Assembly: GCF_965363235.1 (NCBI RefSeq)
Contig: NC_134844.1
Coordinates: forward strand, 20,814,646 to 20,878,645
Source of the DNA: Mytilus galloprovincialis
Lineage: Eukaryota; Mollusca; Bivalvia; Mytilida; Mytilidae
DNA length: 64,000 nucleotides
Direction: 5' to 3'
The position numbers and the translations under genes are program-made. The notes under the pieces are model-generated. The model was given only the letters and a program-made list of their open reading frames with translations, had not been told where the DNA came from and searched no databases. Below, in pieces: positions 5,601 through 60,705 of the stretch. Positions within the stretch are counted from its first letter, which is position 1. Each line of letters starts with the position of its first letter.

Positions 5601-8600
5601 ATGCCTACACATTTTCAGGACCACACATTTAAGAATTTGACACAGGTTAAAAAAAAAGGAGTGAATTGAACAGTTTTTAAAAAATATCTTATTTCTTCGT
5701 GCTTGAAGATATTGATTTGATATTTAGAGTATTGTTTTATTAGAAGCAAGTTAAATTTTTCTTCCATTCTGACTATTATGTACAAAGTTATAGTCCTTGG
5801 ACTTATAAAATAATTAGTTTTCCAGACTATTTTTCCTCATGCTTGAAGATATTGATATTTGTTAGATAGTTTTCACCATGACAAGTTAAAGATACAGCAT
5901 TTTGTGTCAGAACAATGAATTTTAACCAACAGGTGACTACGGTATGTAATGCCTTACTCACAGAATTCTTGTTTTTATATGTATTCTATGATTTCATGTA
6001 GTTTTGCTATGCATTGATAATATATGGGGAATACATCAATTAGACTTCTACCTATCAAAGCAACAACAAAAAATTAGTAAAGATGCCTTAGAAATATGAA
6101 AACGTTTTTTAATTGCAGGTTACCCACCATTTTGTTCTGAAAATCCACAAGAAACATACCGGAAGGTTATGAACTGGAGAGAAACATTAATTTTCCCCCC
6201 AGAAATGCCTATATCTAATGAAGCTAGGGAACTCATTCAAAGGCAAGTTTTCATATATATGTAACAGTAATGTACAAAGGAAAAGGTACAAGTGGGGTCC
6301 AAATTGACCCTAAAGAATAAGGGACCCTTATGCTCTTTTTAAATTCAGCTAGAATGTTCCATAGTTTTACCTATTTAAGGTTAAATTTTGTCAAAACTTC
6401 ATTACATCACACAGATAGAAAGGGAAGCGAAGGATACCAAAGGGACATTCAAACTCACTAGTAAAAAAAATTACAATGCCATGGCTAAAAAAGAAAAAGA
6501 CAAACAGACAAACAACAGCACATAAAACTTTAGACTGAGATGTTAGAAATTATATAATTATGAACCAATATTGTAAGAGGTCAGCAAGTTTTTGTTCACA
6601 CATTTGATATCTCAAAGTTTGACATTATAATAAAAGATATTTTTGTTTGATATACGTCAGTAAGACAGCAACCCAAATATGAGCAAATCTCTTAAAATAA
6701 TCAGTTGAAAGTATTAAGATTTCATTTGCTTAGTTAAGCTTTCTCTTTATGCATGGTGGACAATATTACACTTGACATTTATTTCCCCTGTACAAATTTT
6801 ATTGTACATAATTTATATTCTTATGTATAAAATATCTTGGGTATTCATGAAAGGTCTTTATATTGTGCTATATATTTCCAGATTTTGCTGTGATCCAGAA
6901 CACAGAATAGGTGCTAATAGTATAGATGAAATTAAATCACATGTATTTTTTAAAGGAGTTGATTGGGAACATATCAGGTGTGTATTGTTTTAATGATTTC
7001 ACAAATGTTTAGAAAAAATAAGGCATAGTGTACTTTTAAAATCACCTATAAAAAAATGAAACTGTTTCACCCTTTCTTTACCTTTCATATGGGTGAGATA
7101 AAAAAAAATACTCAAAATATGATTGAAGTTAAGTTTTTGCCATGTTCTAACCTACTATAAAGGAATGCAATGTAGATATTTTTTGGACTAATAACTGTGG
7201 AGAGTTTTGTTTTCCATAATAATGAAGTCAGTGAAATTACCTTTTATTAAAGCTGAGAAAAACTAAGACAGCCTTGACAGACAAAAGCTGTGGTAGTAAA
7301 AATAACACAACCTCAGGTTAGATAGAAAAAACAAAATAACACAACCTCAGGTTAGATAGAAAAAACAAGGTAAAACTAACACAACCTCAGGTTAGATAGA
7401 AACAAGAATGTGTCCATAGTACACGGATGCCCCACTCGCACTATCATTTTACATGTTCACTGGACCGTGAAATTGGGGTCAATACTTTAATTTGGCATTA
7501 AAATTAGAAAGATCATATCATAGTTAACATGTGTACTAAGTTTCAAGTTGATTGGACTTCAACTTCATCAAAAACTACCTTGACCAAAAACTTTAACCTG
7601 AGCTTCACACTATCTTCTTCTTTGTTCAGTGGACCATGAAATTGGGGTCAATACTTTAATTTGACAATAAAATTAGAAAGATCATATCATAGGGAACATG
7701 TATACTAAGTTTCAAATTGATTGGACTTCAACTTCATCAAAAACTACCTCGACCAAAAACTTAAACCTGAAGCGGGACGAACGAACGGACGAATGAAGGG
7801 ACGAACGGAGGCACAGACCAGAAAACATAATGCCCCTCTACTATCGTAGGTGGGGCATAAAAACAAAGTAAAAATAACACAACCTCAAGTTAGATAGAAA
7901 AAACAAAATAACACAACCTCAGATTAGATAGAAAATACAAAGTAAAAAATAACACAACCTCAGGTTAGATAGAAAAAACAAAGTAAAAATAACACAATCT
8001 CAGGTTAGATAGAAAAAACAAGGTAAAAATAACACAACCTCAGGTTAGATAGAAAAAACAAAGTAAAAATAACACAACCTCAGGTTAGATAGAAAAAACA
8101 AAGTAAAAATAACACAATCTCAGGTTAGATAGAAAAAACAAAGTAAAAAACTATCAAAAGACAAGCAACAGTATACAAGAAAATAAAGTCTGACCAACAT
8201 GAACCCCACCAAAAACTGAGGGGTCATCTCAGGTGCACTGAGAGTTGTTAAAACTTATAATAAATAAATTGTTTTCTATTATAACAGGATGGAGTGTTTT
8301 AATATAATTTATTCAATTTATTTGTATATTATATAGGGAGAGACCAGCAGCCATTCCAGTAGATGTTAAAAGTATAGACGATACATCAAACTTCGACGAT
8401 TTTCCAGAAATTGATCTCAAGTGGCGTAAGTTAACAATTCTATAATGTGGAATTTGAATATTTTCATTTTTATAGTTTAAATAGCTCAGAACTATCAATG
8501 ATTTTTGGCCAGTAGTTGTATGCTTTATATTTTTATTTAATTATTTTAATTTCACTATTAGATTTTGAGTATTTTTTCTGCTAACATTATTATGAATAGT

Positions 8601-59800: not shown

Positions 59801-60705
59801 TGCGCCATGAGCGCATGATACGCCCGGCGCCTTGTGTGGAAGTTTTATGCAATAATCGTAAATAGTATCTGAGAAAGTTTTAAGCAATAAACATATATTG
59901 TTTTTGAGATACGGCGGGACATGTGACTCCCCCCCCCCCCCCCCTTCCTGTTTTTTTTTTACAAAAAACTAAATATCACTAAAATAATTTTTTTAATCAA
60001 AACCAAAATCTTTAGATTAATATAACAAAGAAGTGTGTAAATTTTAAGCAATAATCATAAATTGTTTTTGAGATACGGTGTGACATGTAAAAAAAAAATC
60101 CCCCTTTTTTACAAAATACTCAATAACTCAAAAATAAAATTTTGAATTATCACCAAAAAGTATACAGATCTTCAGATTAATATAACAAAAAAGTATGTAA
60201 AGTTTTAAGCAATAATCATAAATCTTTTTTTGAGATACGGCGCGACATGTAAAAAAACTCTCCCCCTTTTTTACAAAATACTCAATAAGTCAAAAATGAA
60301 ATTTTGAATCATCACCAAAAAGTATACAGATCTTAAGATAAATATAACTAAGAAGTGTGTATGTAAAGTTTTAAGCAATAATCAAAAATCGTTTTTGAGA
60401 TACAGTGCGACATGTGAAAAAAACACACCCCTGTTTTAGGTACAAAGTGCCGTAACTCAAAAAGTTTTAATCTTATTTCCACCAAAAAGTATACAGATCA
60501 TTTGACCATCATAAGAAACAACTATAATAAGTTTCATGAAATTTGGATAAGTCGTTCTCAAGTTACAGTGCGACATGTTTACGCCGGACAGACAGTCGAC
60601 GGACAGACGGACAGACAGACAGACAGACAGACGGACGGACGGACGGACGCAGGACATTTGTATACCATAATACGTCCCGTCAAAATTTTGACGGGCGTAT
60701 AAAAA
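59801..60705 (+). mobile_element. Pearl-like non-autonomous element, family C2, four modules
   Basis: The 5' hairpin TGCGC (59801-59805) with GCGCA (59811-59815) is followed by ATACGCCCG (59818-59826). Four core modules follow, each with AAGTTTTAAGCAATAATCA, TTTTTGAGATACGG and CGxGACATGT, spaced about 180 bp. Next is a (GACAGACGGACG)n tract (60588-60652) and a terminal hairpin 60670-60700 (ATACGTCCCGTCAAAA ... TTTTGACGGGCGTAT), followed by A's. The last nine hairpin bases CGGGCGTAT are the reverse complement of the 5' motif. A 15-nt C run occurs at about 59929-59943. Non-coding. Confidence 0.8.

Follow-up and report, generated by a model that had tools for sequence, protein, structure and literature searches.

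Three repeat families in a Mytilus galloprovincialis locus with the probable end structure of non-autonomous Helentron-type transposons

Introduction

Helentrons and the short HINE elements related to them follow a common map, which sections of two published accounts give as a hairpin-borne 5' subterminal inverted repeat (subTIR) with an inverted repeat (IR), a microsatellite, tandem repeats, a 3' subTIR, a 3' palindrome and T-rich DNA (PMC7492417, PMC4067079). Several oyster HINEs carry GTC-type microsatellites, and the same text mentions the pearl elements and MgE of Mytilus (PMC7492417). For the related Helitron2 elements, Bao & Jurka 2013 propose that pairing between the 5' and 3' ends destroys the 5' hairpin and so sets the endpoint, and describe compensatory changes in two Culex elements (PMC3627910). 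Here we describe three repeat families, F1, F2 and F3, in a stretch of 64,000 nucleotides from Mytilus galloprovincialis (NC_134844.1, positions 20,814,646 to 20,878,645; hereafter the window). Judged on their sequence organisation, they very probably represent non-autonomous Helitron2/Helentron-type rolling-circle transposons of HINE-like build, lying on the minus strand.

Results

Terminal organisation of the three families

One complete copy of each family in the window, at 7401-7858 (F1), 21702-23071 (F2) and 59791-60700 (F3), served as query against a 1.385-Gb assembly of 331 contigs. The best-scoring 40 of 5436 (F1), 9805 (F2) and 2785 (F3) candidates were retained, and the copies scored below are therefore a non-random sample. 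The resulting locus set comprised 88 loci and the window, with three loci that repeat the window's own copies excluded from counts. Pairing 5' with 3' ends in transposon orientation gave 30 F1, 34 F2 and 26 F3 pairings. The F2 pairings draw on 30 distinct 3' ends, four sharing a 3' end with another, and 33 of the 34 entered motif scoring, one element cut by a locus edge having no sequence there.

A first-pass annotation of the window had read the elements in the reverse direction, such that its 5' end is the 3' end of the transposon. Along the minus strand, the order is a host T-run, an A and a 5' hairpin containing the 5' subTIR, a GTC-type microsatellite, modules, a complementary 3' subTIR, a palindrome and TT. 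What had been described as a 5' hairpin followed by a motif corresponds to the 3' palindrome and 3' subTIR, while the supposed GAC tract, terminal hairpin and A's are the microsatellite, the 5' hairpin and the host T-run. The GAC-rich tract beside the hairpin was correctly noticed, being the GTC-type microsatellite of the minus-strand reading in all three families, and the proposed ends were near the mark, lying 0-10 nt from the exact ones. The suggested resemblance to Helentron-derived elements such as DINE-1 was right: the terminal grammar fits the published HINE/DINE-1 map point by point.

The F1 copy (7401-7858, minus strand), whose ends were set from 30 paired copies, is inserted in a 40-bp tandem repeat, with the empty site inside that flanking array. 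Its 5' hairpin (7830-7858) has as outer arm the 5' subTIR ATGCCCCAC (7850-7858), and is followed by a GTTC/GTCC microsatellite (7775-7807), tandem modules (7454-7770; 169 bp x 1.9), the 3' subTIR GTGGGGCAT (7427-7435), with 9 nt complementary to the 5' subTIR, and a palindrome GTGT..ACAC (7410-7424) that was identified by eye and gives way to other pairs when the whole 3' end is folded. In F2 (21702-23071, minus), the 5' hairpin with its subTIR (23041-23071) carries a conserved C.A mismatch at position 8, and precedes a GTC/GTCC microsatellite (22907-23025), two modules with a period of ~500 bp (21862-22903), the 8-nt 3' subTIR AGGTGAGC (21729-21736) and the palindrome AGGCTCTTTAGAGCCT (21708-21723). 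In F3 (59791-60700, minus), the arm opposite the 5' subTIR ATACGCCCG contains one bulged A (hairpin at 60670-60700); a GTCC/GTCT microsatellite (60585-60649), tandem modules (60008-60438; 162 bp x 2.7), the 9-nt 3' subTIR CGGGCGTAT (59818-59826) and the palindrome TGCGC..GCGCA (59801-59815) follow. GTC-type microsatellites and tandem modules thus lie between the ends in all three families.

Complementarity of the ends

The hairpins and the three complementary motif pairs reported by the first-pass annotation are present in the window and persist in the family consensus sequences, where the first 13 nt are exactly complementary to the opposite end over at most 9, 8 and 9 nt in F1, F2 and F3. 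By contrast, the six swapped family pairs reach only 3-5 nt. The three motifs, two in the hairpin arms and one at the distant end, were all unchanged in 24 of 30 F1, 24 of 33 F2 and 14 of 26 F3 pairings, that is, in more than half of the copies examined. Among 200,000 random 53-nt stretches of the locus set, 864, 1138 and 683 attained the F1, F2 and F3 complement, rates that are upper bounds because the pool includes the families' own copies.

The loci and window (349,559 bases) were also scanned for the layout of T-run, hairpin, distant complement and palindrome, a search blind to F3 because of the bulge in its hairpin. This gave 129 raw matches, with several registers per element, versus 5, 5 and 3 in three shuffles. 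F1 (24 loci) or F2 (22 loci) accounted for 96 of them. The other 33 fell in 8 sequences, including L021, L033, L054 and L019; they have the look of tandem or low-complexity repeats, which makes the shuffle an incomplete null, as real repeats may reproduce part of the layout at a higher rate than it implies. Some of these matches contain real hairpins and repeated complements (e.g. L021:353-3313). Separately, GTGTCTCGCC motifs occur at L034:499 and L054:3439, the former adjoining a palindrome GGGTTCCGCGGAACCC; they may belong to another family sharing this end grammar.

Insertion sites

The left flank read TTTTT in 24/30 F1, 29/34 F2 and 25/26 F3 pairings. On the right, F1 ended in CTTG followed by TT in every pairing (30/30), the F2 flank began with GTT in 33 of 34 (GTA in the remaining one), and the F3 end was TGTTTATT in 22 of 26. 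A search among the collected loci identified paralogous empty sites for 7 of the 90 pairings: two for F1 (the window's 40-bp array and L019), four for F2 (L020, L021, L027 and L034) and one for F3 (L055). This count excludes two nested-element alignments (L037), a weak F2 match (L032) and a diverged L055-L054 match (77%), and several of the seven cases sit in tandem-repeat flanks. The empty version already holds the T-rich site, and the element adds a fixed A...TT unit; at L019, whose paralogue is a different locus, two more T's differ. At the seven sites there was no target duplication beyond TT, a TT that is indistinguishable from the element's own. The terminal A's that had been assigned to the elements are accordingly host DNA already in the empty sites, and the check on insertion sites that the first-pass annotation had proposed points to T-rich targets entered without target duplication.

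Copy number, modules and head-to-tail joins

Exact-pattern counts across the genome gave 2,462 F1 3' ends (backwards pattern, 0), 7,012 F1 5' ends (control, 0) and 9,281 F2 5' ends (control, 3). For the first 49 F1 3' ends listed, all on one chromosome, an upstream F1 5' end was found in 36 cases, and 33 of these 36 distances fell at 261-333, 440-497, 634-661 or 852-915 nt, equivalent to about 1-4 modules. F1 copies hence differ by whole modules: modules occur in all three families as first claimed, but their number varies, from about one to four in F1, rather than being two to four throughout.

Exact head-to-tail joins through a single shared TT were found for F1-F1 (10), F2-F2 (5) and F1-F2 (2), in counts that leave out F2-F1 and use patterns of unequal length. 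Random neighbours drawn by end counts would slightly favour F1-F2, and 10 of 12 as F1-F1 has p ~0.005, or 0.01 when two joins 299 bp apart on contig C4 count once. These two (C4:19210430 and 19210729) lie on one strand and delimit a short F1 unit in a head-to-tail array, which is what a rolling-circle concatemer would give.

Relations between the families

The first-pass annotation held that the families have no sequence similarity. This stands for F1-F2 and F2-F3, whose modules were not significantly alike (81/1000 shuffles each), but not for F1 and F3: their first modules, directly after the microsatellite, align with a score of 55, which none of 1000 dinucleotide shuffles equalled and which 57 of 1000 random windows of the locus set reached, from a pool containing F1 and F3 copies. 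By their module alignments, then, the three families are not wholly unrelated internally. A short element with F2-type ends and a different module, F2b (L037:2700-3300), lies immediately behind the closing TT of an F2 copy. The first module of F2b is related to that of F2 (0/1000 shuffles); its similarity to F3 was borderline (12/1000) and that to F1 not significant.

Candidate Helentron machinery

The genome contains 138 matches to Helitron_like_N (Rep) and 150 to PIF1, many of them in one frame of 2,000 to 3,163 codons, which makes the presence of Helentron-like enzymes probable. Recent Helentron activity is suggested by several Rep groups whose scores are very similar and whose frames stay open for as many as 3,163 codons. 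The stops of two Rep open reading frames (ORFs) had been estimated beforehand from broken relatives (C14:8769907 and ~C2:32812500), and 901 and 841 nt were read nearby; the frames stop at ~8770115 (C14) and ~32812643 (C2), ~1.5 kb past PIF1. The final 88 residues of one ORF matched Exo_endo_phos weakly (E 0.018; 15.2 bits, below the Pfam cut-off of 24.5), and a comparison of this end with solved structures returned no endonuclease. The 27 end residues of the other had no Pfam match; by eye they look endonuclease-like.

On its 3' side, the C14 copy, the first of the two, has an 8-bp inverted repeat and then a perfect 13-bp palindrome. Of the 138 Rep places, 26 are followed downstream by a match to this 3' side, at a distance of 4138-4158 bases in 23 cases and of 3916, 3928 and 6026 in the rest. 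No exact terminus emerged for this group, as copies 89-97% alike run past the point where copies ~73-84% alike stop. Within the loci, none of the stop-to-stop ORFs of at least 150 aa appeared Helentron-like when their first 60 residues were inspected by eye, with no family scan made. Helentron-type Rep-helicase genes are abundant, their C-terminal endonuclease being weakly supported. The earlier proposal of one shared machinery holds for the type and not for one enzyme, and the two 3' sides read gave no partner with the same ends.

Alternative folding of the ends

DNA folding energies for the hairpin and the distant duplex were near balance, at -9.8/-12.9 (F1), -12.7/-12.2 (F2) and -12.2/-13.2 kcal/mol (F3). 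In co-folding, the distant pairing was preferred only in F1, and the 5' hairpin was kept in F2 and F3. The competing fold that the first-pass annotation envisaged is therefore favoured in F1 but not in F2 or F3, and the idea itself was already put forward, with the same reasoning, in Bao & Jurka 2013 (PMC3627910). In every family the hairpin is imperfect at a spot lying inside, or on the border of, the segment whose match to the distant end is perfect: in F1 the pairing opens into an internal loop beyond 7 bp, in F2 position 8 is mismatched (C.A in 31/33 pairings, C.C and A.A in the other two), and in F3 the bulged A recurs (26/26).

Changes to the 5' arm and the 3' subTIR affected 3 and 1 of 30 copies in F1, 3 and 3 of 33 in F2, and 7 and 7 of 26 in F3, and on reading the rows none were matched. 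The compensatory changes that the first-pass annotation had suggested seeking did not appear within families, where the changes were uncoordinated. These motif changes are probably mostly post-insertion decay, and for this reason the missing compensation is weak evidence.

Other features of the window

A partial F2 at 23531-23863 (minus) owes its second 5' end to a local tandem duplication with a ~0.8-kb unit; the duplicated segments, 22708-23539 and 23531-24332, are 96% alike and include the 5' end of F2 and the flanking sequence beside it. An F2 3' fragment in the opposite orientation (886-1105, plus) is directly adjoined by a candidate fourth element (1-882, plus), also opposite in orientation to F1-F3, with 147-bp modules, the end GGCGAGACA...CTCTTGTT and a 5' end beyond the window.

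Elsewhere, ORFs at 18354-19688, 28268-29629, 41932-43302 (minus) and 60964-63066 (minus) comprise three galactose-3-O-sulfotransferase-like frames (E 1.4e-40 to 6.7e-44) and one sulfate permease/STAS frame, a possible sulfation gene cluster within 64 kb. A 9.5-kb array of a 60-bp unit (49798-59325; 159 copies at 95%) has long frames open through parts of it, which a unit divisible by 3 allows.

Discussion

All three families combine a hairpin-borne 5' subTIR, a complementary 3' subTIR just upstream of a 3' palindrome, and a microsatellite with modules, and all insert at TT or T-runs without target duplication, as HINEs do. The explanation that best covers the whole, and which we consider likely, joins this class assignment with a trans-acting Helentron-type enzyme and end signals. 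Under it, a Helentron-type Rep-helicase-endonuclease supplied in trans would nick the T/A boundary, recognise the 5' hairpin and peel off one strand; the 3' subTIR and palindrome would be read as a stop signal, and the new copy would be joined into a TT or T-run with no target duplication. Three abundant repeat families, with thousands of F1- and F2-type ends, would be explained in one step.

Several results weigh against this account. At 8-9 nt, the subTIRs are shorter than those of DINE-1 (13) and of oyster HINEs (11-12), yet within the Helitron2 range of 8-15. This exact length also falls below the rule of at least 11 bp of Thomas et al., and we consequently claim no family name in their style. 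No compensated subTIR changes occurred among the 30 F1, 33 F2 and 26 F3 pairings, the endonuclease match is weak, and the test for homotypic joins comprises 12 events, where ordinary tandem duplication could also give same-family joins. The autonomous partner with the same ends sought at the first-pass annotation's suggestion was not found: 3' sides were read for copies from two of the many Rep groups, and both end differently from F1-F3.

Other origins can be set against the same data. The short, non-coding, high-copy nature of the families, with inverted repeats near their ends, would suit miniature inverted-repeat transposable elements (MITEs), derivatives of DDE transposons with imperfect terminal inverted repeats. 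The repeats are asymmetric, however, one being terminal and the other internal to the palindrome, and the target-site duplication expected of MITEs is absent at the empty sites, which makes this origin very unlikely. Retroposons resembling short interspersed nuclear elements (SINEs), with a terminal hairpin and A-tail read by a long interspersed nuclear element, would account for the hairpin followed by A's on the plus strand. Yet those A's pre-exist in the empty sites, there is again no target duplication, module arrays vary and the terminal joins are exact; of all the origins considered we regard this as the least credible. The MITE and SINE readings were both rejected on the empty sites. 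A chance or convergent resemblance among unrelated repeats might be argued from the F2 modules, which lack significant similarity to F1 or F3, and from the 33 layout matches outside F1 and F2, which exceed the shuffle yield. Set against it are the swapped-pair control (3-5 nt versus 8-9), the end grammar, target and microsatellite type common to all three families, and the related F1 and F3 modules, leaving it highly improbable.

A different question is whether, with the class right, the alternative fold is used at all. The subTIRs could match simply as two binding sites, identical as double-stranded DNA, for one protein acting at either end, which is a serious possibility falling somewhat short of probable. 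The uncoordinated motif changes and the retention of the 5' hairpin in the co-folded minimum of two of the three families are consistent with it; however, changes that are probably mostly decay say little about compensation, all three hairpins carry a defect in, or bordering on, the part where the distant pairing is perfect, and compensatory changes are reported for the two Culex elements (PMC3627910). A more tentative proposal, made for Helitron2 by Bao & Jurka, is that the 3' subTIR invades the 5' hairpin and thereby ends replication. A stronger version, in which the ends act as a switch and the defect-weakened 5' hairpin flips open when the 3' end arrives, marking the element as complete, seems to us rather unlikely. 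Were it true, families with unrelated ends would have been selected for the defect itself, beyond complementarity. What may be added to the scheme of Bao & Jurka is only this shared defect in three families, for which no literature search was made. If it proves general, it would offer a simple testable rule for spotting real Helentron ends, and the families provide a large natural data set for the proposal that pairing of end signals sets the rolling-circle stop.

Compared with known systems, F1-F3 are new members of a known design and no new system. In a literature text search for the three end strings, the matches listed, 19 papers containing one of them, included none on transposons by title and none on pearl elements or MgE. 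Pearl elements and MgE of Mytilus are likewise short and interspersed, and their tandem cores are of the 160-bp class found here, a likeness of description rather than of sequence. Among Helitron2 elements, Bao & Jurka 2013 describe one family that inserts after TTTT without target-site duplication, and raise the pairing-competition idea also considered here (PMC3627910). Helitron2 is described as lacking an endonuclease in PMC4067079, whereas here one Rep ORF end has a weak match and the other is a look-alike by eye. DINE-1/HINE elements and Helentrons, as covered in Thomas et al. 2014 (PMC4067079), share with F1-F3 the subTIRs, the IR inside the 5' subTIR, the 3' stem-loop, the TT target, the microsatellite and the modules; unlike F1-F3, DINE-1 has 13-bp subTIRs and known autonomous partners with the same ends. 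The Cg_HINE elements of the Pacific oyster, as described in Vojvoda Zeljko et al. 2020 (PMC7492417), have subTIRs of 11-12 bp versus the 8-9 nt here, and their likeness is one of description, not sequence. It extends to a 5' subTIR with a nearby complementary IR, a GTC-type 4-nt microsatellite, satellite-like modules, a 3' subTIR, a palindrome and a T-rich TT target without target-site duplication.
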